IMG/VR virus record: IMGVR_UViG_3300042691_013813
Coordinates: 1-34,194 of that record
DNA length: 34,194 nt
Direction: 5' to 3' (one strand)
DNA from: a virus
Positions within the stretch are counted from its first letter, which is position 1, and the number at the start of each line of letters is the position of its first letter. Below, piece after piece: positions 9,135 to 34,194 of this stretch. The position numbers were made by a program, and so were the translations under genes. The notes beneath the pieces were generated by a model. The model saw nothing but the letters and a program-made list of their open reading frames with translations. It did not search any database and had not been told where the DNA came from.

Positions 9135-11039
9135 ATGAGCACCAACATCGACATCATCTACCTGTCCTCGCCACAGGCTGTCACGCTTCAGAATGTGAAT
9201 CTGGAGTCGTATGCGTGCGAGCCTGTGCTCGCGACGGATGGGATGAACCCCATGTTCTCCAAGGTCGCGATCTCCGGCACGGCGATTGTCACGGACGAGG
9301 ATTGGGATGCGATCCGAATCGTGATGACGCATTCGTCGCAGCGAGCCGTGGAAGTGCGACTCAACTATCCGAGTCCGAGCGTTCCGCAGCCCGACCTGAT
9401 TCGGCTGGAGAGCATCAACTCTGCGACGGGAGGCCCGTTCGTCAAACTCACGGGAACGCAGGTCGCGGGAGGGCAACTCGTTCTCGTCAGGTTTGAGATC
9501 GAAGACCAGTTTGCGTTCTGCGACATTCCGCTGGTCAGCCATGTGTTCCGGCAGTCGTTCGCAATTGATGCAAAGGGCTACAGCACGCGTACGCTCACGG
9601 GATCCGCGACAGCCTACCGAGGAGCCACGGGAACGAATTCGGCGGTTGCGACGAATGCGACATGGCAGACCACTCGCCCGTATGCGGATCTGTTCCGGCG
9701 ACTGTTGATCCCCGGATTGCCCGGGCCAATCGGATGGCGGCGCGAGTCGCAGCAGTTCGACTACGACGACAAGAACCTGACGCTGTCCTACACCATCGTG
9801 GACCGACAGACGGTTTCCAGCCTGCCGGACAATGTCCGCGTGGGCGACATGGAGTTCAGTTACGAGCGCAGCCTCGACAACCCGGGTGTCGCGATGCTTT
9901 CGTTGTCCTGCGATCTTGAGGCAGGCCCGGAACTGCAACAGATGACGGTGGATCCGCAGGGCGGAGCGCCGATCACGCCGATCCGGTATCTGGTCAAGGT
10001 TGCGGTCGCGCTAGCGAACACTCGCATCAACGCGGCGTTCAGCACGATCATTATCCAGCGCATGAAGATCACCGAATCCGAGATGCTGAGTGGCATCAAG
10101 ATCCGGTTTGAACTGGAGGCGATGAAGTTCCCGGCAGGCGACCCCACCAAGATCCTGCCGCTTGCGAACATGATCGGCACGCGGTTCTTCATCGTTCGCA
10201 ACATTCCGGCGCAGCCGGATGTGTACGGTGCGCCGACCTACCTCTATGACCCCGTCTCGGGGGGAAATCCTGTGCCGTTCGGCCCGTATGCAATGGTCCC
10301 GCATTGGGTTGGGATGATGCTGAACGGCTTTGACTGCGAGGACCCCGATGTTCCGCAGGCTACGCTGCTCACCGCGTCGTTCACGAACAATTTCGGTCCG
10401 GTCTCCATCGCGGTAGCGGTGGGGGACGACGGCGTTGACACGATGAACTCGCAGTTCGCTGGCCGTTACGAAACGGCGCAGAATCAGCCGTCCGACGCCG
10501 AACACGATGACAAGTTCTACGCGCAGATCATCCCGCATAGCCGCAGCAACACGACGGCGGACTACGACTCCGGGATCGTCCGGCTGTCCACCATGTACAC
10601 CGATCAGCCCGATCTGGTTCTGCAGGTACGCAAGCCGCAGGTGCTGGTGAGCGAGCATGTCGAGATCGTGCAGGCGAACAAGGCCCCGGAGAAGTCTTTC
10701 CGGCCTATGCCAGCGCAGAGCAATCTGACGCAGGAGCGGTGGTCCGTTGCCTATGGGCGGTTTGATGCACAGGGCAACCGAATGTTCACGGGCATCTACG
10801 ACAGGCAGTACAGCCTGTTTGATGCGGGAGCCTCGACCGACAACGGGTTTATCACGCAGAACAACGCCTATACAGGCAATGTCCGAGCGTGGAACTCTCC
10901 GACCCAGACCTTCAATCCGTCGCTTACTCCGACTGCAACTCTGGCGTCGCAGACGACTACGGCGTCCGTTATCAATACAGCGGGAACCGCTGCCGAAGAA
11001 CGATACTCCGTACCGACGACGACATTCGTGATCGCATGA
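9135..11039 (+). CDS. Large tail protein (tail tip/baseplate candidate), 634 aa
   Basis: I do not recognise a named family. The 634-residue protein begins MSTNIDIIYLSSPQAVTLQNV and is strand-rich, with repeated Asp- and Pro-containing loops and no membrane segment. It follows the tape measure and overlaps the next large gene by ATGA, the place of distal tail and hub proteins in siphoviruses. The C-terminal 60 residues are rich in Thr, Ala and Asn (TQTFNPSLTPTATLASQTTT), which suggests a flexible or fibrous end. An upstream in-frame extension exists but would run into the tape measure gene. Confidence 0.6.
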   Translation: MSTNIDIIYLSSPQAVTLQNVNLESYACEPVLATDGMNPMFSKVAISGTAIVTDEDWDAIRIVMTHSSQRAVEVRLNYPSPSVPQPDLIRLESINSATGGPFVKLTGTQVAGGQLVLVRFEIEDQFAFCDIPLVSHVFRQSFAIDAKGYSTRTLTGSATAYRGATGTNSAVATNATWQTTRPYADLFRRLLIPGLPGPIGWRRESQQFDYDDKNLTLSYTIVDRQTVSSLPDNVRVGDMEFSYERSLDNPGVAMLSLSCDLEAGPELQQMTVDPQGGAPITPIRYLVKVAVALANTRINAAFSTIIIQRMKITESEMLSGIKIRFELEAMKFPAGDPTKILPLANMIGTRFFIVRNIPAQPDVYGAPTYLYDPVSGGNPVPFGPYAMVPHWVGMMLNGFDCEDPDVPQATLLTASFTNNFGPVSIAVAVGDDGVDTMNSQFAGRYETAQNQPSDAEHDDKFYAQIIPHSRSNTTADYDSGIVRLSTMYTDQPDLVLQVRKPQVLVSEHVEIVQANKAPEKSFRPMPAQSNLTQERWSVAYGRFDAQGNRMFTGIYDRQYSLFDAGASTDNGFITQNNAYTGNVRAWNSPTQTFNPSLTPTATLASQTTTASVINTAGTAAEERYSVPTTTFVIA

Positions 11040-12997
11040 TCGAAGCGTGGTTTACAACCTCCGTCGAGGATCAGGTCATCCCGGCACTCATGCCGAACCC
11101 GGAACTGCTGGATCTGGCGCAATGCGCGGATCTGGACATCAGGGAGATGTTCTCCATCGACATCCCGGGCGGTGCGAGCCGCCACAGCCGCATCAAGGTG
11201 CTCGTCAAGCGCGGCGATGCCGACCTGCTGTACGAGTCGCAGATCGAATGGCCTGTCCCGGCATCGCTTGCCCCCGTCGCAATTCAAGCGACCGCTGTGT
11301 TCAACTGGCGCGAATCCAGCGGAGCCGCGATCAAGCGGATCCCTGTATTCCTCCTGCCGCAGCGTCCGCTGTTCATGATTCCCGGGCATACAGGCGTCGT
11401 GCAGGTCGAGGCGGTGGATGTGCGGTACATGTGGCAGCGATGCGGCGGCGGCACGACCGAGACGCGCAACAAGACCTTCTTCGACGGCAGGTGGACTGCG
11501 AGCCTCAGCAACAGCACGCTGTCCTCGACGCTGCAGAGCGCGATCAACAACCTCTACCCTGCGCCGTCATGGATTGACAAGACGGCCTACACGCCCGATG
11601 CGTCGCTGGTAGACCGCATCCGGGACATGGGCGGGGACGGAAACTGGCCGTTTCAGATTGACCAACAACTGAGCGCGACGGGCTATGTGTTGCTGTGGGA
11701 GCCGGAGGATCCTGAGAATCCCGACCCGGCGTACCCGTACGGACGATACCGCGTCCGTCCGGTGCAGAGCGACCTGCTGCTGCTGACGGAATGGATGGGC
11801 GGAACCGAGGAAACGCCTGCGAACAAGCGAGCGTACTTTGGCGGCATTCAGCCGATGTCGGGCGACATGACCGTCGCGAGCGAGCCGCTGATCGACCTCT
11901 GGAAGGGTACGGTCAAGGAGCAGAATCACCGAGCGCCCCTGAATGTCGAGGTGCAGTTCCCGTACCGCGCAGTCGAAGGACGCACCTACTACGACAACAT
12001 CCAGAAGACATGGTTGATCCGAACCGGGGGGGAGAACTGGTTCGCAGAGCAGCGGGACATCGCGGACACGGTTCCGATTCCGACCGTGCGAGCAAGGCCC
12101 GATCTGAATACGCTCGCGATCAACGAGCCGCGCATCATTCCCGCAGGCGAGTCTCCGACCGCACAGTCGTTCGCATGGCCCTACATTCAGTTGCCGCCTC
12201 CGCTTCCGCCGCCGTCTCTTGGCGCGACCTACCCGTCGTGGGACTACGAGACCTACCGAGACGAAGTCGCGGATCTGCTCGCGAAGCGGTGCGAGGTGCT
12301 GTTTGGGAAGACGGTGTGGGCTGGCTGGCCGACGATGCCAACCGGGTGCTATCGGGCGACGATGCTGCGGTACTACCTCTGCCGTCGCGAGGGCAACCTG
12401 ATGCCGCTAACGATGACAGAGGCTGCGGAGGACGAATGGCTGCTCGGCCCGGACGGCCTGCGCCCCAATCATCCGAGCCGGGTGTTTGTCGGGCAGGGCA
12501 TGGCGCAGGTCCGCTACCACACCAGCGGGGTTCACACCATCGGCGTCGCTCCTCCGAACTGCCGGGTGTTCCCTGCTCGGATCACGGCGGCGACACGCAT
12601 CGGAGTCGCTGGCAACGACTACTGGCAATGGGAATACGAGTTTGAGGAGGTCGAGCCGAATCCCATTGACCCCAGCCCACTTACGCAGGACATCACGGAA
12701 TACGCACGCTCCTCCACGCTGACGGCCTCCGTGACGGCTCCGGCACGCAACCTTGCGGAGACGGGCAATGTGTATGTCTCGGCAGGCAACAGCGGAAACC
12801 AGATCGCACCCGGCGTGCTACAGAGCGCGTTTACGAGTGCCACAATCGAACCGCTGCCGATCAGCGTCGGAACGACCGTAATGATGTGCGAGCACTTCGT
12901 GACGGTGTATTTTGAGAGCGTCACGCCCTTCGCACCGTATCAGCGGCAATACTGGTTCGTGATGCCGAACGCCGTGAATGTGGTCTGCAACCCGTAG
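11036..12997 (+). CDS. Large tail tip/hub candidate, 653 aa
   Basis: The ATG at 11036 overlaps the previous stop. The 653-residue protein contains mixed alpha/beta segments, a proline-rich linker near residues 380-395 (QLPPPLPPPSLG), and a Trp/Tyr-rich second half (WDYETYRDEVADLLAKRCEV, DYWQWEYEFEEVEP). These traits fit a tail hub or receptor-binding platform, but no diagnostic motif is seen. It is translationally coupled to the 9135 gene, so the two probably form one tail-tip complex. Enzymatic activity cannot be judged from the sequence. Confidence 0.6.
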   Translation: MIEAWFTTSVEDQVIPALMPNPELLDLAQCADLDIREMFSIDIPGGASRHSRIKVLVKRGDADLLYESQIEWPVPASLAPVAIQATAVFNWRESSGAAIKRIPVFLLPQRPLFMIPGHTGVVQVEAVDVRYMWQRCGGGTTETRNKTFFDGRWTASLSNSTLSSTLQSAINNLYPAPSWIDKTAYTPDASLVDRIRDMGGDGNWPFQIDQQLSATGYVLLWEPEDPENPDPAYPYGRYRVRPVQSDLLLLTEWMGGTEETPANKRAYFGGIQPMSGDMTVASEPLIDLWKGTVKEQNHRAPLNVEVQFPYRAVEGRTYYDNIQKTWLIRTGGENWFAEQRDIADTVPIPTVRARPDLNTLAINEPRIIPAGESPTAQSFAWPYIQLPPPLPPPSLGATYPSWDYETYRDEVADLLAKRCEVLFGKTVWAGWPTMPTGCYRATMLRYYLCRREGNLMPLTMTEAAEDEWLLGPDGLRPNHPSRVFVGQGMAQVRYHTSGVHTIGVAPPNCRVFPARITAATRIGVAGNDYWQWEYEFEEVEPNPIDPSPLTQDITEYARSSTLTASVTAPARNLAETGNVYVSAGNSGNQIAPGVLQSAFTSATIEPLPISVGTTVMMCEHFVTVYFESVTPFAPYQRQYWFVMPNAVNVVCNP

Positions 12998-13006
12998 GAG
13001 CCGAGC

Positions 13007-13348
13007 ATGGCAAGCGTTGACAAGTGGAACATCGTGTTCGCCAAGGGTGCGAACTACACGCAGACGATCACCGTTTCGGGCGTGGCGAACATCGCGACGG
13101 CGACCGAATGGCGCGTTCGGTGTGCATTCCCCGACGAGTCCGCATTTCTGGTTGCGACCAGCAACAACGGCATGCTGATCGCCGGGACCTCGTCCTCGCA
13201 GAAGATCCTTACGGTCACCGCCGCCACGACCTCCGGTTTCGCGCTCGGCAACGCTCGGTTCGACTTTGAGGTCGAGTTCCCGGACGGAACCGTCAGCCGA
13301 TACATCAGCAACGGCCTGTGCCAGATCAACCCGGAGGTTGGCGTATGA
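13007..13348 (+). CDS. Small beta-rich tail protein, 113 aa
   Basis: The 113-residue protein (MASVDKWNIVFAKGANYTQTI...) has a strand pattern common in small baseplate or fibre-base proteins: FAKGANYTQTITVSG, then WRVRCAFPD, and a closing FDFEVEFPDGTVSRYISNG. It resembles the small adaptor proteins that precede phage fibres. AGGAG lies 8 nt before the ATG. Its stop overlaps the fibre gene start (ATGA), so the two are coupled. Confidence 0.5.
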   Translation: MASVDKWNIVFAKGANYTQTITVSGVANIATATEWRVRCAFPDESAFLVATSNNGMLIAGTSSSQKILTVTAATTSGFALGNARFDFEVEFPDGTVSRYISNGLCQINPEVGV

Positions 13349-13893
13349 GCACCACGATCACCGTGACGGATAGCGGGGTCACATTGACCGTCAGCCCGTC
13401 CGGCGGCGGCGTCGTTGGCGTTGGGATCCCATCCGGCGGTTCGACGGGCGAGGTCCTGACCAAGACAAGCAACAACAACTACGCGGTCGCGTGGCAGGCC
13501 CCGAGCGCAGGGGCGCTCGCGAGTGATTGGGCAACGCTTGGGGCCAACATCACCCTGAGCGCAGGAAACTGGGCAGATGCCCTGTCGCTGACCCTGTCGG
13601 CGGGAACTTGGCTACTGCTGGGGAATGCGACTGCGGCCCCCGGCACAAACCAGCAGGACATCTCGGTGCGCCTGTTCAATTCGACCGCCTCAACGACCCT
13701 GAGCAGCACCAGCATGCACGCGGAGCACAGCAACGAGCCTCACGCGCTCGCGGCGACGGCGATTGTCACGCTTGCCCTGTCCTCGGTTGTCAAGTTGCAA
13801 CTGCGCTGCGAGTCATCCCCGGGGACGGTGTATGCGAATTCCGAGGGCCTAGGGAACACCAGCACGACGCTCGCAGCGGTGCAGATCGGCTGA
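13345..13893 (+). CDS. Tail fibre tip / receptor-binding protein candidate
   Basis: The 182-residue protein has an N-terminal strand region, then the linker GGSTGEVLTKTSNNNYAVAW (31-50), a form of the G-x-x-G-x-V-L-x-K-x-x-x-x-x-Y-x-x-x-W element that recurs before trimeric fibre tips. The remainder (LTLSAGTWLLLGNATAAPG, ISVRLFNSTA, a final STTLAAVQIG strand) looks like a C1q/TNF-type jelly-roll tip. It is probably the host-recognition tip. The start at 13345 overlaps the previous stop. A longer frame from 13318 would begin inside the previous gene. Confidence 0.6.
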   Translation: MSTTITVTDSGVTLTVSPSGGGVVGVGIPSGGSTGEVLTKTSNNNYAVAWQAPSAGALASDWATLGANITLSAGNWADALSLTLSAGTWLLLGNATAAPGTNQQDISVRLFNSTASTTLSSTSMHAEHSNEPHALAATAIVTLALSSVVKLQLRCESSPGTVYANSEGLGNTSTTLAAVQIG

Positions 13894-13915: not shown

Positions 13916-14107
13916 ATGGACTTCGACCAGTTCGGCGGCATCATCGCACCTATCGCAACCATCATCGCGGCCAGCAGTTGGCTGCACAATTCGCTCAACA
14001 AGATCGCGATCAAGGTCGAGGTCATGAACGCGAAACTGGACGACTACGGCCAGCGCATCAGCCGCATTGAGCAGGAACTCGACCAAATTCGGAGGAGGCA
14101 GCCATGA
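13916..14107 (+). CDS. Small membrane protein with coiled coil (lysis module, holin-associated)
   Basis: The 63-residue protein has one hydrophobic N-terminal segment (GGIIAPIATIIAASSWLH) followed by a coiled-coil-like tail (VMNAKLDDYGQRISRIEQELDQIRRR). Topologically it resembles small phage holin-associated proteins of the XhlA kind with the order of membrane segment and coil reversed. I start at ATG 13916, with GGTGGAG 7 nt upstream; a GTG at 13904 would add four residues but removes that site. It overlaps the next start (ATGA). Confidence 0.6.
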   Translation: MDFDQFGGIIAPIATIIAASSWLHNSLNKIAIKVEVMNAKLDDYGQRISRIEQELDQIRRRQP

Positions 14108-14283
14108 AGGACCGCAACACGACCGTCGCAGGCATTGGAGCCATTCTCGTAGCCATCGGCGGCATCCTGACAACGATGTTCGACGGCGACGCAAGCACCC
14201 TGCCGGACTACGCGTCGGCAGCGGCGGCAGTCATCGCGGGGATCGGACTGATCTTCGCGAAGGACGCGAAGAAGGATGCTTGA
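14104..14283 (+). CDS. Holin candidate, 59 aa, two membrane segments
   Basis: The gene encodes 59 residues with two hydrophobic segments, VAGIGAILVAIGGILTTMF and YASAAAAVIAGIGLIFA, joined by a short acidic loop (DGDASTLPD) and ending in a charged tail KDAKKDA. This is the layout of a small class II holin, which would form the timed inner-membrane hole. It overlaps the genes on both sides. No endolysin is recognisable nearby, which is unusual for a holin locus. Confidence 0.65.
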   Translation: MKDRNTTVAGIGAILVAIGGILTTMFDGDASTLPDYASAAAAVIAGIGLIFAKDAKKDA

Positions 14284-14452
14284 GAGGCTGCTCCTTGCCC
14301 TCGCGGTTGCCATCATCGGCTGGCTGGAGAAACGCGCAGAGCGTGGATCGACTGCGGTCGATGCGGCTCGCGATGACGGTCGCCTTGCTCGCGCTGGCGA
14401 GCGGATTCGTCGCTGGATGCGGAAGCCGGACGATCCTCGTCCCGGAGAGTAG
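14276..14452 (+). CDS. i-spanin (Rz)-like small membrane protein
   Basis: ATG 14276 opens a 58-residue frame: an N-terminal membrane segment (LLLALAVAIIGWL) followed by a strongly charged helix with many Arg and Glu (EKRAERGSTAVDAARDDGRL) and the tail WMRKPDDPRPGE. An inner-membrane anchor plus charged periplasmic helix is the Rz plan, although Rz is usually about twice this length. The lipoprotein gene at 14361 begins inside it in another frame, the classical nested Rz/Rz1 arrangement. The assignment rests on that architecture. Confidence 0.5.
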   Translation: MLERLLLALAVAIIGWLEKRAERGSTAVDAARDDGRLARAGERIRRWMRKPDDPRPGE

Positions 14453-14594
14453 TCCCGTCCGCGTCGGCCCGAGTCTGCGAGGCCGCGTGTACGCGCTGGT
14501 GGACAACGAATGGCGGCTGTCGGCCAACGCCGTTGAGATCCCCGAGGGCTGGTATCTCGTACCGCCTTCGTTTGTCGAGGGTCCGCACGAATGA
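14361..14594 (+). CDS. Lipoprotein, o-spanin (Rz1)-like candidate
   Basis: The 77-residue product starts with a lipoprotein signal peptide, MRLAMTVALLALASGFVAGC, with lipobox V-A-G-C and the acylated Cys at residue 20. The mature part is about 57 residues and ends VEIPEGWYLVPPSFVEG. It should be anchored in the outer membrane. Together with the 14276 product it would form a spanin that disrupts the outer membrane after holin action. A GTG at 14343 is an alternative start. The gene overlaps 14276 in a different frame and overlaps 14591 by ATGA. The mature domain is less Pro-rich than typical Rz1. Confidence 0.6.
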   Translation: MRLAMTVALLALASGFVAGCGSRTILVPESSPVRVGPSLRGRVYALVDNEWRLSANAVEIPEGWYLVPPSFVEGPHE

Positions 14595-14788
14595 GGATCC
14601 TGCGGCCCCTTGAGATCGCACGCCGGATCGGCTGCACGCCAAAATATGTCGGCTACCTGATCGACAGCGGAAAACTCCGCGGATACAGGCTCCCGGGGTC
14701 GCTGCATCGGCGCGTCCGCGAGGATGTCCTAGATGCATTCATTCGCGATCGAATAGAGCAGAAGGGAACGCGCAAACATGGGATCTGA
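14591..14788 (+). CDS. MerR/excisionase-type helix-turn-helix protein, 65 aa
   Basis: The 65-residue basic protein reads as a winged-helix DNA-binding domain of the HTH_17 type: LEIARRIGCTPKYVGYLIDSGKLRGYRLPG, then HRRVREDVLDAFI. Such proteins act as excisionases or small regulators. No integrase is present, so an excisionase role lacks a partner. It overlaps the lipoprotein gene stop and the Cys-rich gene start, so it is expressed with late genes and could be a late regulator. Confidence 0.65.
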   Translation: MRILRPLEIARRIGCTPKYVGYLIDSGKLRGYRLPGSLHRRVREDVLDAFIRDRIEQKGTRKHGI

Positions 14789-16736
14789 GGTTCTCTCAGC
14801 GTGCTGCTGCGGCCAGACCGGACAATGCACTCTGCGTCCGACCGTGTTCGGGGAAACCATTGACACCGGGTGCTGTCACCTAGAGGACTCGCTCATCCTG
14901 TTCTGCCAGCGGCCCGGGTACAGCAACGAGCAATGGGGGACCTGCGGGACAGGAATCGACACCGAGTATCACTACAGGGTCACAGGCGCGTCGTGCGACC
15001 CCATCGTCGCGCTCTACAAGTTTTACGACTGCTGGTATCGCGTCGCGTATGCGTTCGGAGGCGGCGCGGAACTGCTGTGCAACCTGCCGCGGCAATGCTC
15101 GTTTACGGGCTGCTCGGGACCGCCGCCGAGCGGCACGACCTTCTGCGAGCCGCTCAATCAGGATTGGAACTTTCTGAGTGACCCTTGCTGCACGCAAGTG
15201 CTGCCGCAATGCCAATGCCAGACCCTCTGGTATTCGCTGCGTCAGCAGGCGGTCATCCGAGATCAGGATCCGCGCTACCCGTCCCCCTGCCGTTGGCTGG
15301 ACGAGGTGGTGTGTCATGCTGGCGGCAACCCGATCTGCAACGGCCTGAGCCTGTACAACCAGTTCCTCGGCGTCGTGTTCTTTGAGCGCGTGTGGAAGGT
15401 TCCCGATGGGAATTTTGGCGGCGATTACTGCGACCCCGGCGTGCGCGTGTACATCCCGCCTTGCGACAACTGCACGGACGACTACAACCCGAACCCGAGC
15501 ACGACCGTCCCGTACTACATCGCGTATGCGGGTTCCGGCGTGCCGATCTTCCTCTGCGACATTGACGATGCATACAAGCGCGGTCTGATCTCTGCGCTGG
15601 AGCGCACGGACCTCATCAATGACCTGCTTGCACAGGTGCAGCCGCAGCAGTCCACGCTCCGCGCCATGCAGGAATATTTCACCCCGGGCGATTGGAGGGA
15701 CGAGCAGGTAGCCGCGTGGCAGGAACTCTGCACGCGGTTCCCCGGCAGCGGGTACTGCTCCTGCCCGACAACGGCCTGCACGATGCCGATGCTCGGGCCG
15801 TTCCGAAAGCGTTGCACGCCGGATGCCTGCACGACGGGCGCACAGTCCTGCATTCGGTATTCCGACATGACCGACAGCGCCAAGGCGCTCAATTCGTCCT
15901 GCCAGTATGCGTATCCGGGTTCGTGTTCGTCGCAGGCCGACTACGACTACTGGGCCGAGCGCCAATGGACCTACTGGCGCGGAGTTCCGGGTGGTTGGGC
16001 ATGGGGGAACTGGAGCGTGACGCCGGACGAGTTCAAGGCGGGTCTGGGCCGCAACGGTCTGGAGTGCATGAATGGGCTGCGGAACATGGAGCGGTGCGAT
16101 CCGAGTTGCCTGAGTCTCGCGTGTCGTCCGACCGCGACAACCTGCTGCGGCTGCACTTTGACAGTCCCGCCGCAATGCACGCAATGTCAGGTTGCTGCGT
16201 GCGCCGACAGCGTGGACAACTTCGCGTGCTTCAAACTCCAGAACTTCACCTGCAGCGGCCTCGCGGCACAGCCCGAGTGCTACGGCGTGCAGTTCATCGG
16301 CTGGCAGTACTACGCTGAGACGAACCTGCAGCGACCGCCGGGTCAGGAGACGATTTTGAAGTGCCTGTACAACGCTCGCTCGTTCCTCGTCGGAGCGCAG
16401 CGCAGCGTGCAATGGGACGGCGTCTGTCCGATGTCGTGCGTCGCATCAAACCCGCCGCTGGGCGTATTCAAGAACTGGCCGTCGTTCACGCCGGGGGCGC
16501 TAGGCGAAGGCGTCATCTGCGGCGCGATCAGCAACGGCCTCCCCGGCTACACCCTGAACAACCTCTGCTGCGGTCACCATTGCCCGTCGTTCGACAATGA
16601 CAACTGCGGCTGGTGGGAGGAACTGGAGGGGACCACCTCCACGATCCGTCGCCCATGTTCGGCGGTGACGGCCTGTCCACCGCTGACACCCGAGCAGGAA
16701 GCCTGCATCGGATTTGTCCCGGACTGCACCCCATGA
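14778..16736 (+). CDS. Cysteine-rich protein of unknown function, 652 aa
   Basis: I count about 59 Cys in 652 residues (roughly 9%), spread over the whole length, with many CC, CxC and CxxC pairs (CCC near the N-terminus, CCGC, CGHHC near the C-terminus). Trp and Tyr are also frequent. There is no signal peptide and no obvious tandem repeat unit. The central part (DAYKRGLISALERTDLINDLL, around 265-290) is Cys-poor and helical. The frame is intact and GC-rich like its neighbours, with AAGGGA before the ATG at 14778. It lies at the end of the late operon, so it may be a virion surface or adhesion protein stabilised by disulphides, or a metal-binding protein. I do not recognise a family. Confidence 0.8.
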   Translation: MGSEVLSACCCGQTGQCTLRPTVFGETIDTGCCHLEDSLILFCQRPGYSNEQWGTCGTGIDTEYHYRVTGASCDPIVALYKFYDCWYRVAYAFGGGAELLCNLPRQCSFTGCSGPPPSGTTFCEPLNQDWNFLSDPCCTQVLPQCQCQTLWYSLRQQAVIRDQDPRYPSPCRWLDEVVCHAGGNPICNGLSLYNQFLGVVFFERVWKVPDGNFGGDYCDPGVRVYIPPCDNCTDDYNPNPSTTVPYYIAYAGSGVPIFLCDIDDAYKRGLISALERTDLINDLLAQVQPQQSTLRAMQEYFTPGDWRDEQVAAWQELCTRFPGSGYCSCPTTACTMPMLGPFRKRCTPDACTTGAQSCIRYSDMTDSAKALNSSCQYAYPGSCSSQADYDYWAERQWTYWRGVPGGWAWGNWSVTPDEFKAGLGRNGLECMNGLRNMERCDPSCLSLACRPTATTCCGCTLTVPPQCTQCQVAACADSVDNFACFKLQNFTCSGLAAQPECYGVQFIGWQYYAETNLQRPPGQETILKCLYNARSFLVGAQRSVQWDGVCPMSCVASNPPLGVFKNWPSFTPGALGEGVICGAISNGLPGYTLNNLCCGHHCPSFDNDNCGWWEELEGTTSTIRRPCSAVTACPPLTPEQEACIGFVPDCTP

Positions 16737-17041
16737 GCACTCGACTCGGCTACATCCCCGACAACGCTGCGACGCGCATTACCGCGCAGCCGCCCGTCTC
16801 CACCACGGACACCCCCGCATCCGAGCCTGAGCCGACCCGGATGCGGGGGCTGGGGGACCTCGTCCACCGGGTGCTCGACGCCGTGGGCGTGGTCAAGTTC
16901 GTCAAGGCGCGGGAGCAGCAGACCGGGAAGGAATGCGGGTGCAAGCGCCGACGCGAGGCCCTGAACCGCGCTGTGCCGTTTGGCGGCGCAGGAGCAGCGC
17001 CAGAGCCTTCCGCGTCACGGACCCACTCGGAGCAGCCCTAG
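16733..17041 (+). CDS. Small protein with ECGC-KRRREALN motif, 102 aa
   Basis: The 102-residue protein starts at an ATGA overlap with the Cys-rich gene. Its centre carries GLGDLVHRVLDAVGVVKFVK followed by GKECGCKRRREALNRAVPFG. A similar small module (helix, V-K-F/V, CGC-x-x-R-x-x-x-LN) is common in tailed phages, function unknown. The N-terminal 35 residues are Pro/Thr-rich and look disordered, as does the C-terminal tail. It is the last gene of the rightward arm. Coupling to the Cys-rich gene suggests that the two work together. Confidence 0.6.
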   Translation: MSTRLGYIPDNAATRITAQPPVSTTDTPASEPEPTRMRGLGDLVHRVLDAVGVVKFVKAREQQTGKECGCKRRREALNRAVPFGGAGAAPEPSASRTHSEQP

Positions 17042-17215: not shown

Positions 17216-17575
17216 TCAGCAGGAGTGCGCGGCCTTGTGGCCGAACGCGGCCTCAATCTCGCGGTACAGGTCTTCCCTGATGGCCGACACGGCAAAGGCC
17301 GTGGCGAGCCGTTCGGACTTGTTGAAGTCGCCGCGCCTTCCCGACAGGATGCCGTAGAGGTCGCTGCCGTCCGCCGTATCCGCGATGACATCAATGGAGA
17401 GACGCAGCAGCCCGTCAATCGTCAGGACGATCTGAATGCCGTACGCGTAGTGGTCCTCCGGGCCGTTCGTGGCGATGACCTGCATGTTGAGCGCGTCAAG
17501 GCGGTTGCGCCACTCGTCGGTGTTGAGGGCGATGCGGAGGTCCTGTGCGGCGCGGCGAACGGTTCGGATGTTCAT
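17216..17575 (-). CDS. Hypothetical early protein, 119 aa
   Basis: I do not recognise the family. The 119-residue protein MNIRTVRRAAQDLRIALNTDEW... has a helical start, a strand-rich middle (GIQIVLTIDGLLRLSIDVIAD) and a charged helical end (LATAFAVSAIREDLYREIEAAFGHK). I start at 17575 because GAAGGAG sits 6 nt upstream; longer in-frame readings pass through the promoter cassette and are unlikely. It is a single-gene unit driven by its own copy of the early cassette (17582-17649) and ended by the hairpins at 17107-17202. Confidence 0.65.
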   Translation of the reverse strand: MNIRTVRRAAQDLRIALNTDEWRNRLDALNMQVIATNGPEDHYAYGIQIVLTIDGLLRLSIDVIADTADGSDLYGILSGRRGDFNKSERLATAFAVSAIREDLYREIEAAFGHKAAHSC

Positions 17576-17581
17576 GGCTGA

Positions 17582-17649
17582 CTCCTTCAGGGTTAGGCCG
17601 AGCGACATGCTCGACGGGTTGACTATACCTACTTCGGCGCAGGGTGCAA
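17582..17649 (-). promoter_or_regulatory. Early promoter-operator-hairpin cassette 1
   Basis: Reading leftward: -35 TTGCAC (17649-17644), 16-bp spacer CCTGCGCCGAAGTAGG, -10 TATAGT (17627-17622), 8 nt, hairpin CGAGC-ATGTC-GCTCG (17613-17599), then GAAGGAG (17588-17582) before the ATG at 17575. The predicted transcript starts within a few bases of the hairpin. Four other cassettes share the same boxes, spacing and leader. Confidence 0.8.
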
Positions 17650-17683
17650 GAGGTCTGCAGCATTTCCTGCGATTTTTCACAAT

Positions 17684-18049: not shown

Positions 18050-18116
18050 CTCCTTCGGTGCGTGACGGGCGACATGCCCGATGCAAACACAGTACCTATG
18101 TCGGCGTAGGGGTCAA
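18050..18116 (-). promoter_or_regulatory. Early promoter-operator-hairpin cassette 2
   Basis: Leftward: -35 TTGACC (18116-18111), 16-bp spacer CCTACGCCGACATAGG, -10 TACTGT (18094-18089), 8 nt, hairpin CGGGC-ATGTC-GCCCG (18080-18066), then GAAGGAG (18056-18050). Compared with cassette 1 the third stem pair is G-C instead of A-T: both sides changed, so pairing is kept. CTGCAGACC precedes the -35 box here and in cassette 1. Confidence 0.8.
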
Positions 18117-18126
18117 GGGGTCTGCA

Positions 18127-18189
18127 GAGAAAAAGGAAAAATCCCTCCCGGCGCTGTCGGACGCACCGGAAGGGACGGCAAGCGCCGGG
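18127..18189 (-). terminator. Intrinsic terminator of the ERF-Gp157 unit
   Basis: On the minus strand CCCGGCGCT (18189-18181) pairs with AGCGCCGGG (18155-18147), a perfect 9-bp GC stem closing a 25-nt loop. It is followed by AGGGATTTTTCCTTTTTC, a split U-tract. It lies 22 nt beyond the Gp157 stop and just upstream of cassette 2, so it separates the two units. Confidence 0.75.
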
Positions 18190-22302: not shown

Positions 22303-22764
22303 TCAGCCGCAGAATGCGGCGTTCTTGGTGCGGCAGGCGTCGCAGCAGTAGATGCTGTGCTCGGAGTCCCCGAGCACGGTCAGGTTGTCGATGGGGTGGG
22401 TGGACTCGCACCACTCGCAGGTCGCGCAGTCCTGCGCCCCCGACAGCAGGTGCTCGTCCTCCGCGCACCAGACGATGTCGGAGACCATCGCGTCGATTTC
22501 CCGAGCGAGGACCCGGATCTTCGCGAGCGCCGCGTGCGGACAGATACGAGCGAACTCGTGCGACCACCGCGGACCGTCGTTGCGGTTGATGTACTCGCTC
22601 ACCAGCAACTGCAGCACGACGATCTTCGCGTGCAGCGCGGTGCGCTCGGGCTGGGAGATAACAACGGCTCGTCCAGAGGATCGCAGCGGCAGGGTCGTGC
22701 CGAGCAGCGCGGCTCCGTTGCTGATGGCGGCACGGGCGAGGACGATGGACTTCGGTTCACGCAT
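22303..22764 (-). CDS. Early protein with C-terminal zinc-ribbon-like cysteines, 153 aa
   Basis: The 153-residue protein begins MREPKSIVLARAAISNGAAL. The N-terminal two thirds are helical and basic; the last 45 residues hold DCATCEWC and, 21 residues later, YCCDAC, a spacing that fits a zinc ribbon. It may bind nucleic acid or a host protein. The ATG at 22764 follows GAAGGAG of cassette 4. It is the first gene of a seven-gene chain ending with RusA, so it is the first expressed from that promoter. Confidence 0.6.
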   Translation of the reverse strand: MREPKSIVLARAAISNGAALLGTTLPLRSSGRAVVISQPERTALHAKIVVLQLLVSEYINRNDGPRWSHEFARICPHAALAKIRVLAREIDAMVSDIVWCAEDEHLLSGAQDCATCEWCESTHPIDNLTVLGDSEHSIYCCDACRTKNAAFCG

Positions 22765-22770
22765 GGCTGA

Positions 22771-22838
22771 CTCCTTCAAGTTGGGCGCGAGCGGCGTGCT
22801 CGGCGGGTTGACTATACCTACTTCGGCGCAGGGCGCAA
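22771..22838 (-). promoter_or_regulatory. Early promoter-operator-hairpin cassette 4
   Basis: Leftward: -35 TTGCGC (22838-22833), 16-bp spacer CCTGCGCCGAAGTAGG, -10 TATAGT (22816-22811), 8 nt, hairpin CGAGC-ACGCC-GCTCG (22802-22788), GAAGGAG (22777-22771). The loop differs from the ATGTC of the others while the stem is unchanged. Just upstream are two adjacent perfect palindromes, CCCTGCAGGG (22841-22850) and AATCTCGCGAGATT (22851-22864). Confidence 0.8.
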
Positions 22839-22865
22839 GGCCCTGCAGGGAATCTCGCGAGATTT

Positions 22866-22897: not shown

Positions 22898-23446
22898 TCA
22901 GGCGGCGAACATCGCCTTGACCTCGGCCTCGGGCGTGAACTTGCCGTTCACATACAGACGGGCGGGGAACTGCGGGAACCATCCTGCGCGGCGCGTGTAC
23001 TTCCACACGATGCGCTGACGCAGGTCAAGCACCGCGTCGCCCTTGCGGACCTGCATGTCGATGTTCGCGCCGTTCATCCAACACAGGGTGCAGGAATCGA
23101 CCGTGCCGAACTTCCCGAGCAACTTCTTGTGCCACGCGAGGAGAGCGTGGATCGCGTCCTCGCGAGCGACGCGCTCGACCTTGGCGTTGTCGATCTGTGC
23201 GCTGTAGACGAGGCGTCCGCGGAGGTCACCCGTTCCGTAGCGGTAGGAGGCGCTGAAGCGCATCGACCGCTCCGCGAGCGCGTCGTAGCGGTTCTGCAGG
23301 GTGAACCCCATGCCGTCCTCCAGCGCGTACTCCGCGAGGTGACGGGCGAAGTCGGCGCGGATGCGCTCGGCAAACTGCGCGGTGAGCGCGTCGAGCGAGG
23401 AATTGACGAGGAGAGCGTTCGCGATGGGGTCGGTCGGCAGGGGCAT
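22898..23446 (-). CDS. Hypothetical early protein, 182 aa
   Basis: The 182-residue protein starts MPLPTDPIANALLVNSSLDA. Its first half is helical (LTAQFAERIRADFARHLAEYA), and the second has strand-rich parts with a CTLCW pair (about residues 118-121) and ends FPARLYVNGKFTPEAEVKAMF. It is the first leftward gene next to the divergent control region and sits alone behind cassette 5, so it is probably the earliest leftward product. GAAGGAG precedes the ATG at 23446. No family recognised; a host-takeover role is only a guess from position. Confidence 0.6.
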   Translation of the reverse strand: MPLPTDPIANALLVNSSLDALTAQFAERIRADFARHLAEYALEDGMGFTLQNRYDALAERSMRFSASYRYGTGDLRGRLVYSAQIDNAKVERVAREDAIHALLAWHKKLLGKFGTVDSCTLCWMNGANIDMQVRKGDAVLDLRQRIVWKYTRRAGWFPQFPARLYVNGKFTPEAEVKAMFAA

Positions 23447-23452
23447 GTCTGA

Positions 23453-23520
23453 CTCCTTCAGGGTTAGGCCGAGCGACATGCTCGACACGGGTACAATACC
23501 TTCGTCGGCGTAGGGGTCAA
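23453..23520 (-). promoter_or_regulatory. Early promoter-operator-hairpin cassette 5
   Basis: Leftward: -35 TTGACC (23520-23515), 16-bp spacer CCTACGCCGACGAAGG, -10 TATTGT (23498-23493), 8 nt, hairpin CGAGC-ATGTC-GCTCG (23484-23470), GAAGGAG (23459-23453). The spacer is a near-palindrome, CCTACG against CCTTCG after inversion. The leader after the hairpin is nearly identical to that of cassette 1. Confidence 0.8.
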
Positions 23521-23523
23521 CCC

Positions 23524-24120
23524 CTCTGAAGCGATTTTTGGAAGTTTGTCGAAAAAAGTTTCCGGCTCGGAAACACAGCGACCCGCACTTGCATCGGCAG
23601 CGCGGGTCGCTATTGTGTGCCTCGGCTGCGCTCACCGTCTCGCAAAGACGAGCGCCGCCGACATCGAACTGGCGGTCGCATTCTACCGCCTCATGCCGCC
23701 AGCGGCAAGATTGCAGCGTCAGCGTGCGCTCCGTCCACGCAGTTAGAGGGCGCGGCCACAGGCCGCTCCGACGCCGGGTCTGACCCTACCCGGCGCATCC
23801 TCCCCGGAGGATCGCTCCTGCATCGTGGTAGCGGCTGGCCCAGCGAAATGGTGAAAACGATGCCTTGGGAAACCTCGCGGCGGCTCCGAGCGGCTGCGCC
23901 TCCCCATGACCTCGCACACACGGGGTCATGGTGTTCCTGCGGTCTCACCAAGCAACTGCGGAAACGCGCCGCAGGCGCGCCGAGCGCCCGAGCGCAGCGA
24001 GGGCAACCTCCGGTCTGGTGGGAGTCGGTGGGCGTCCCCCGCCCCTCGCTGGGCCTCCAAAGTAGCCCGAGCGAGGCGGCGGAAGAAAATTGCAGAAATG
24101 TTGCGCCGAATCCTCAAGTG
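23524..24120. other. Divergent intergenic control region, about 600 bp, rich in hairpins
   Basis: No convincing gene is seen between the leftward cassette 5 and the rightward cassette 6. Successive inverted repeats include 23577-23586/23602-23611, 23752-23757/23761-23766, 23772-23779/23788-23795, 23797-23802/23807-23812, 23904-23914/23921-23931 (11 bp, one G-T, loop CACACA), 23965-23970/23974-23979, and the longer-range 23995-24003/24043-24051. Such a structured divergent region could hold an origin, a packaging or recombination site, or a structured RNA. The sequence alone does not decide. Confidence 0.55.
23577..23611. terminator. Hairpin upstream of cassette 5
   Basis: AGCGACCCGC (23577-23586) pairs perfectly with GCGGGTCGCT (23602-23611), a 10-bp stem with a 15-nt loop. 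On the minus strand it is followed by GTGTTTCCG, weakly U-rich. It could shield cassette 5 from leftward read-through or be part of the control region structure. Confidence 0.4.
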
Positions 24121-33186: not shown

Positions 33187-34194
33187 ATGCAGCAGGACCC
33201 TTCGCTCGCCGCGCTCCTCAAGGACGCCGCGCAGGCGTACCGCGAGGCCATCGCCGCACAGGTCGAGGGCGTGGACCCGTCCGAGCATTGGGAGCGTTGG
33301 AAGGCCGACACGGCGGCTCTGCTGCTTGCGTCGTGGGCGGCTGGGGCGCTCACGACCGTCCGGCAGGCCGGAGTCAATCCCGCGCTGACATCCGCCGCAG
33401 CGCAGCCCACGGCGTTCGCCCGGGGCATTCCCGAGACCGTCTACAGGTTCGAATCCGGGCCAGCGGCATCGGTCGTGTCCCGGTTCATCAATCTGCTTCC
33501 GATGACCCGCCAGCGATGGGAGGCCCTCATTGACTACGCGTACCAAGCGGCGGGGGAGATGCAAGGCGACGAGGCCGCGAACGCCCTTGCGAAGATCCTC
33601 GACCGTTCCCCGAGGCTCCGTGATCTCGTTCAGGGTGCTGCGGGTCGTCCGCCTGTGCCGAATGTCAAGACCCCGCGGCGAGCGCCCGAGGCCGTCAAGC
33701 GTGCTCGGACGCCCGAGGTGCAGGCCGCTGTGCAGGGGTCGTTCTTCGCGACGGGCATGACGCAGCAGCAGGTCGAGCAGACCCAGCAACTCCTCGCCAA
33801 GGTCATACGGCAGGAGGTCACGACCAGCGTCGCCGGGAAGCAACTCCTGACCCTCGGTCTTGGGGACTTCGTGCAGCAGGCGACGCTTGAGACGGGGACC
33901 GACCTGACCTCGGCGCGGCTGGAGACCATCTACCGCACGAACCTGAACCGGGCGCAGACGCAGGGGCAACTCGACATCTGCCGGGACGAGACTGTCAAGG
34001 CGTTTGTCCCTCTCATGCGGTTCAGCGCCACGAAGGACAGGCGCACCCGCGACACGCACAAGGCGATGGACGGGTACATCGCGACCGTCGATCAGATCGA
34101 CGCGATGGGGATCCCGGCTCCGCTGGGGTTCAATTGCCGCTGCGCGTGGATCCCGATCTCCGTGAACAAGGCGGTCAACGAGGGCCTGTGCGAC
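33187..34194 (+). CDS. Mu gpF-like minor head protein, N-terminal part (3' end cut by the window)
   Basis: An ATG at 33187, just after the portal stop, opens a frame that runs off the end of the window (336 codons). It begins MQQDPSLAALLKDAAQAYRE, contains helical stretches and VYRFESGPAASVVSRFINLL, and by its end shows the Mu F marks YRTNLNRAQTQGQ, RDTHKAMDG and GFNCRCAW. It continues in the same frame into positions 414-518 of the window start, giving about 370 residues. It is a minor head protein that normally helps connect portal and capsid and may be injected. Only the joining point is uncertain. Confidence 0.88.
   Translation, partial: MQQDPSLAALLKDAAQAYREAIAAQVEGVDPSEHWERWKADTAALLLASWAAGALTTVRQAGVNPALTSAAAQPTAFARGIPETVYRFESGPAASVVSRFINLLPMTRQRWEALIDYAYQAAGEMQGDEAANALAKILDRSPRLRDLVQGAAGRPPVPNVKTPRRAPEAVKRARTPEVQAAVQGSFFATGMTQQQVEQTQQLLAKVIRQEVTTSVAGKQLLTLGLGDFVQQATLETGTDLTSARLETIYRTNLNRAQTQGQLDICRDETVKAFVPLMRFSATKDRRTRDTHKAMDGYIATVDQIDAMGIPAPLGFNCRCAWIPISVNKAVNEGLCD
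33782..34194. repeat. Right copy of the 413-bp near-identical terminal overlap
   Basis: This copy pairs with 1-413 (398 of 413 positions equal, no gaps). The right copy reads K259 in the left as R and has Q in place of K and E at two other sites. The match runs to the last base of the window, so its true extent is unknown. Confidence 0.9.

Follow-up and report, generated by a model that had tools for sequence, protein, structure and literature searches.

Receptor-binding proteins of phages, such as the E. coli O-antigen tailspikes, combine a conserved N-terminal anchor with a receptor-binding domain that is exchanged horizontally (PMC10408124). Cysteine chemistry in a phage tail has been described for Agrobacterium phage Milano: inter-chain disulphides link its tail parts, Cys38 bonds the short tail fibres to the baseplate, and the structural proteins contain 2.1% Cys on average (PMC10811340).

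The Cys-rich protein (CRP) analyzed here shares with modular tailspikes and fibres (PMC10408124) a constant N-terminus, exchange of the whole body and a position near the end of the structural operon. In contrast to them, its anchor comprises only about 10–17 residues and is made of Cys (CCC...C), the Cys-rich bodies contain 4–10% Cys, the model of the body family concerned (family 0) is globular and matches no solved fold, and no homology to a known fibre or spike was found. The likeness to Milano lies in tail parts linked by inter-chain disulphides, which for the CRP are predicted. Milano differs in that proteins with ordinary sheath, baseplate and fibre roles carry 2.1% Cys, whereas the CRP is one dedicated protein with 9% Cys; the two are set apart on the basis of the published description of Milano, and no cultured phage in the collection matched the CRP.

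The window, that is, the whole stretch of DNA analyzed, corresponds to one virus record with a length of 34,194 bases. A direct repeat of 300 nt, 95% identical between positions 1–300 and 33782–34081, was found in the gene for a head-morphogenesis (Mu gpF-like) protein; the ends of the window thus overlap, and the genome is close to complete (about 33.8 kb). The mismatches between the two copies suggest either two strains or an assembly overlap. The features of the CRP region are as follows.

11036–12997, plus strand: tail-region protein with a C-terminal domain ending in ...YWFVMPNAVNVVCNP.
12965–12994, plus strand: C-terminal Cys motif PNAVNVVCNP, whose Asn and Cys are conserved even between unrelated tail proteins in CRP phages.
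13007–13348, plus strand: small tail-region protein (phrog_1084) with a weak LtfC-like beta-sandwich match; its cluster lies upstream of the CRP in 20 loci.
13345–13893, plus strand: tail-fibre-like protein with a phrog_22680 match; putative fibre role.
13916–14107, plus strand: 63-aa membrane and coiled-coil protein, with which a weak XhlA match in the whole-window scan would fit.
14104–14283, plus strand: 59-aa holin-like protein, so predicted from hydrophobicity and context.
14276–14452, plus strand: possible inner-membrane spanin with one transmembrane segment, a charged tail and, in a different frame, an overlap with the following gene.
14361–14594, plus strand: o-spanin-like lipoprotein with lipobox VAGC and end PEGWYLVPPSFVEGPHE; the C-terminal motif occurs in 14 loci.
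14591–14788, plus strand: HTH_17/excisionase-like protein of 65 aa, overlapping the CRP start.
14778–14831, plus strand: N-terminal CCC module of the CRP, MGSEVLSACCCGQTGQCT, similar in kind in unrelated Cys-rich bodies and the site of the recombination joint in other phages.
14778–16736, plus strand: CRP, 652 aa long, 59 of them Cys; its exchangeable body belongs to family 0 (translation; AlphaFold2 model).
16733–17041, plus strand: CGC partner of 102 aa with the motif TGKECGCKRRREALN, overlapping the CRP stop by 4 nt.

Two further observations concern other parts of the window. At 1083–2549, a 488-aa protein of the head/tail operon carries an early GDSN motif and appears SGNH-hydrolase-like by eye, with nothing significant in Pfam. 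Diverged direct repeats of 65–117 nt were found between minus-strand early genes (17560–17676, 22749–22865 and 23431–23547; also 17599–17663, 18066–18130 and 23470–23534); they contain a TACCT box together with a palindrome resembling CGAGCGACATGCTCG, have more copies in locus L006, and are possibly shared promoter or operator elements.

The genes upstream of the CRP recur across loci, where gene calls were made with a home-made codon scorer: a small beta-sandwich-like tail protein, fibre-like proteins, a coiled-coil membrane protein, holin-like proteins and a spanin-like lipoprotein terminating in PEGWYxVPPSFVE. The lipoprotein suggests a Gram-negative host; among other host clues, no tRNA was found, nor any match among prokaryote genomes. 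In siphovirus-like loci the CRP represents the last gene or genes of the tail and lysis operon. In loci L013, L015 and L025 it is flanked by fibre-like genes on one side and by genes for proteins longer than 2,000 aa on the other, a gene order that appears podovirus-like. A calcineurin-like phosphoesterase of 290–306 aa was observed near the CRP gene in ten loci, among tail and lysis genes (for example L014 6911–7783, L016 7677–8549, L024 7719–8591 and L053 8323–9243), and none was seen in the window.

Translation of the ORF at 14778–16736 from its ATG confirmed the 652 residues and 59 Cys (9.0%) reported in the initial annotation, as well as the abundance of Trp (19) and Tyr (30); only 5 His are present. 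The recognizable structural genes of the window contain 0–2% Cys, and the neighbours of CRP genes across the family average 1.0%. The absence of a signal peptide also held, since the N-terminus MGSEVLSACCCGQTGQC, read by eye, has no hydrophobic signal segment, and the small CGC-motif partner was found directly downstream as described. The CC and CxC clusters claimed at the same time did not withstand comparison with shuffled sequences of the same composition: CC, CxC and CxxC occurred 6, 4 and 3 times, against 5.2, 5.2 and 5.3 expected. There is thus no clustering beyond the high Cys content itself, and clustering was dropped as a signal.

Protein-guided scans of IMG/VR yielded 35 distinct contigs carrying members of family 0, with identities to the window CRP from 91% (L006) down to approximately 29%. 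The reading frame is kept over this whole range, and the ORF is a real gene. Full-length members comprise about 633–904 aa with about 6–9% Cys, and the family is fairly uniform, at approximately 30% identity along its whole length. Between the window and L006, dN/dS was 0.17, and all 59 Cys were untouched by the 61 amino-acid differences. Of these Cys, 36 were kept in at least 80% of members of the 24-member alignment, and in relatives below 40% identity Cys was the best-conserved residue (mean identity 0.64, followed by Trp with 0.62). Cys pairs co-changing at p<0.01 amounted to 0.48%, compared to 0.31% for other residues, on a tree of 25 sequences; as this excess is only slight, it was not used as evidence for pairing.

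The sensitive homology search proposed in the initial annotation matched no known family: Pfam, PHROGs, NCBIfam and PDB sequences, searched with single proteins and with alignments, gave no match to the CRP, and a BamD match with E of 0.04 was rejected as chance-level. No match was obtained in cultured phages and plasmids by tblastn, nor in 84,980 bacterial and archaeal species genomes. Close homologues with an ordinary known function, which would have spoken against the annotation, were not encountered, all homologues being of unknown function. When other Cys-rich bodies were compared with family models, one member matched DUF2706 at 1.6e-4 and the remainder were weak. In the open-access literature, no account of such a Cys-rich module was found.

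The AlphaFold2 model of the CRP, built from a 33-member alignment, reached a mean pLDDT of 80.6 and a pTM of 0.83. Residues 1–16, the CCC region, were the only stretch of at least three residues with pLDDT below 50. Foldseek gave no match with E below 0.001, either for this model against PDB or for an earlier, weaker model against BFVD. The best VIA re-alignment (Z 3.5, an OprF barrel, 95 residues at rmsd 4.9 Å) was considered chance-level. Since neither method gave a solved-fold match, the fold looks new, with the reservation that a lack of match does not exclude membership in a family.

Upstream of the Cys-rich genes, a tail protein was found that ends in a conserved C-terminal Cys motif. 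The end YWFVMPNAVNVVCNP in the window corresponds to YWFSVPNAVKVTCE in L021, LWLILNTQAVDGSCPP in L002 (4585–5013), AYFCLANAIDGACS in L014 (to 2403), YVFESDNTIDGACP in L064 (5144–6004) and IFSMPNAYKVRCE in L063 (2692–4095), while in L016 and L024 further residues follow the Cys motif. The common ending centres on N-[AT]-...-[DKN]-[GV]-x-C, or more simply a C-terminal N-x-C motif, and the proteins sharing it fall in separate sequence clusters. Those tested against Pfam and PHROG gave no significant match. In L063 and L065 (4556–5989), the tail protein directly upstream of the Cys-rich protein was observed to carry a CC(C)DC cluster and collagen-like GPQGPPGP repeats, followed by the C-terminal Cys motif.

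For the association itself, IMG/VR was searched with the c25-type tail protein alone, yielding 80 loci, and with the C-terminal region of the window's c19-type tail protein, yielding 12. As the contigs are fragments, the assessment of co-occurrence was confined to loci with sequence beyond the tail gene, and only those with at least 4.8 kb downstream of it were scored for a downstream ORF. An ORF was accepted if it had a start codon, CC within 25 codons, no fewer than 190 aa and a Cys content of 4.5% or more. Such an ORF was found downstream of the tail gene in 28 of 28 c25-type and 9 of 9 c19-type loci (37 of 37 in total). In control spans upstream it was found in 0 of 59 and 0 of 9, respectively, and on the reverse strand in 1 of 28 and 0 of 9. 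A first, looser version of the test had shown high false-positive rates on control strands and was superseded by this one.

The Cys-rich proteins detected in this way lay mostly outside family 0, and they start alike. Their N-termini, among them MSLQRACCCG, MSTHRLCCCG, MITPLCCCA, MSGETAASCCC and MGSEVLSACCCG, follow the pattern (M)S...xCCC or CC. Past this region, the bodies separate into roughly a dozen families without detectable homology to each other, and they are called unrelated here in the sense of no detectable sequence similarity. Family 1 (15 loci) comprises about 320 aa and family 2 (11 loci) 520–720 aa where complete, with several small families besides and further new ones behind the c19-type tail protein. 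In hhalign, family 0 reached a probability of at most 0.5% against any other body family, compared to 99–100% for control members. The one similarity between families is a 72-residue N-terminal stretch common to those of L157 and L161 (94.5% in the profile comparison).

Exchange of bodies was evident among related phages. Loci L128, L123, L138, L142 and L143 show 80–93% DNA identity, with 85% over 8.4 kb between L128 and L138 and 91% across the 1.5 kb leading up to the joint between L142 and L143. When L128 was compared with L138 and L142, identity ended 42 nt into the Cys-rich gene, just past the CCC codons, and returned approximately 100 nt past the stop codon. Between L142 and L143 it was lost 28 nt into the gene and returned 96 nt after the stop, at 93.9%. 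Across these near-identical phages, the joints thus lie 9–14 codons into the gene, at CCC. A recombinant was also found for family 0: L020 matches L151, whose body belongs to family 1, at 84% identity through codon 13 (MPDPTTGHPWCCC), and L026 at 85% identity from codon 15 onwards. The position of the joints at the CCC codons indicates that the N-terminal codons are part of the phage backbone and that the body is a cassette.

The Cys-rich genes generally have the gene for a small CGC protein behind them, and for the CRP such a CGC-motif gene lay directly downstream in 24 of 25 family-0 loci. CGCxxRREALN-like partners were found in the window and in L002, L006–L009 and L021; a second type is zinc-ribbon-like (CxxC...GFCxxCGCG...CP), with weak DUF6171/phrog_13558 matches. 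In the L123/L128/L142 group, the CGC gene belongs to the backbone. The partners resemble, by weak matches, small phage CxxC...CxxCGC proteins (phrog_13558, DUF6171) and CGCxxRREALN proteins; those of cultured phages differ in occurring in other contexts, with no recognized Cys-rich neighbour. Small CGCxxRREALN-type proteins were observed in the cultured or assembled phages L074, L075 and L076 (MW202828.1, NC_018272.1 and PP395634.1), and in Nonlabens phage P12024L one is encoded shortly before the large terminase gene; the type is a widespread, unexplained phage motif. By annotation, no Cys-rich neighbour of the CGC-type protein is recognized in Nonlabens P12024L, Microcystis Mel-JY01, Synechococcus S-CRES2 and others. 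The CGC motif alone was not accepted as diagnostic of the module.

A late-operon gene that keeps its anchor and exchanges its body follows the pattern of receptor-binding proteins, and on this ground the CRP is proposed to be a virion-displayed, disulphide-rich host-interaction protein docked by its N-terminus, with a probability of roughly 0.6. The anchor with exchanged body was found for family 0 itself (L020 against L151 and L026), and the gene lies in the tail and late region in linkage with tail genes. The virion-surface and host-binding options of the initial annotation accordingly fit both the position of the gene by tail and lysis genes and the exchange behind a conserved N-terminus in strict link with a Cys-ending tail protein. 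Several findings count against a receptor-binding role: the window has another fibre-like candidate (13345–13893), family 0 is more conserved (approximately 30% identity, dN/dS 0.17) than is typical of receptor-binding tips, no known receptor-binding fold matches the model, and the CRP often follows lysis genes rather than tail genes.

Under the host-interaction proposal, the CRP, lacking a signal peptide, would be synthesized in the reducing cytoplasm and would attach to the tail by the short CCC module at its N-terminus, probably on or close to the Cys-ending upstream tail protein. Once exposed by lysis, it would oxidise to a disulphide-rich globular body and serve as an exchangeable virion component of the receptor-binding or tail-tip display type, and phages could switch specificity by swapping the whole body behind the CCC codons. 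Direct docking of CCC to the C-terminal Cys of the tail protein has the appeal that each of the two features is conserved in partners that are otherwise unrelated, and is suggested tentatively. As the CGC protein is retained while bodies change, its proposed role is that of a general assembly factor. A similarly tentative extension is that these phages may represent an undescribed class of host recognition based on Cys chemistry, with a CCC anchor docked, perhaps through a disulphide, to the Cys-ending tail protein, a dozen or more unrelated plug-in disulphide-rich bodies of unseen folds, and the CGC protein as an assembly or redox factor.

Among the alternatives, the one that survives best, at a rather low probability, is a structural Cys-rich protein (a collar, plug or tail-tip decoration) that would stiffen the virion through disulphides without binding a receptor. 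The strict association with tail proteins, the even conservation of family 0 under purifying selection and the disulphide network in the Milano tail (PMC10811340) agree with it, but whole-body exchange in near-identical phages and a dozen unrelated bodies are unexpected for a part that has to fit its neighbours.

Somewhat less probable still is a protein set free by lysis or delivered during infection, acting on competitors, superinfecting phages or the host as an exclusion or toxin-like cassette, and polymorphic for that reason. Polymorphic bodies behind a constant N-terminus would be expected of such an effector, and the CRP is located after the holin and spanin-like genes; however, no immunity-like partner varies with the body, the CGC gene staying in L123, L128, L138, L142 and L143, no toxin family was matched, and the strict link to the tail protein would be left unexplained.

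A protein that binds or stores metal (zinc, iron or Fe-S), metal binding being also named in the initial annotation, appears very improbable. The 59 Cys and the zinc-ribbon-like second partner type with its weak matches would suit it, but His is scarce, CxxC is neither enriched nor conserved, Cys spacing is random, the 229/232 Cys pair varies in spacing among relatives, and the aromatic-rich, well-folded bodies are unlike metallothionein. The least probable alternative is an endolysin or other lysis enzyme, which was raised because no endolysin family match was among those listed for the window genes and because the CRP adjoins the holin and spanin-like genes, but which is opposed by a dozen unrelated bodies, no catalytic-domain match and the place of the CRP among virion-type genes in L013 and L015.

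If the host-interaction proposal is true, a whole group of uncultivated phages relies for host recognition on disulphide-rich proteins that resemble no known spike or fibre, and the CCC start together with the Cys ending of the tail protein would provide a simple signature for finding such phages and for linking bodies to hosts. A solved structure of a family-0 protein would probably reveal a new fold, as the model matches no known structure. The proposal, if true, would also raise the question of how proteins with approximately 16–67 Cys stay reduced in the cytoplasm and then oxidise correctly at or after lysis.
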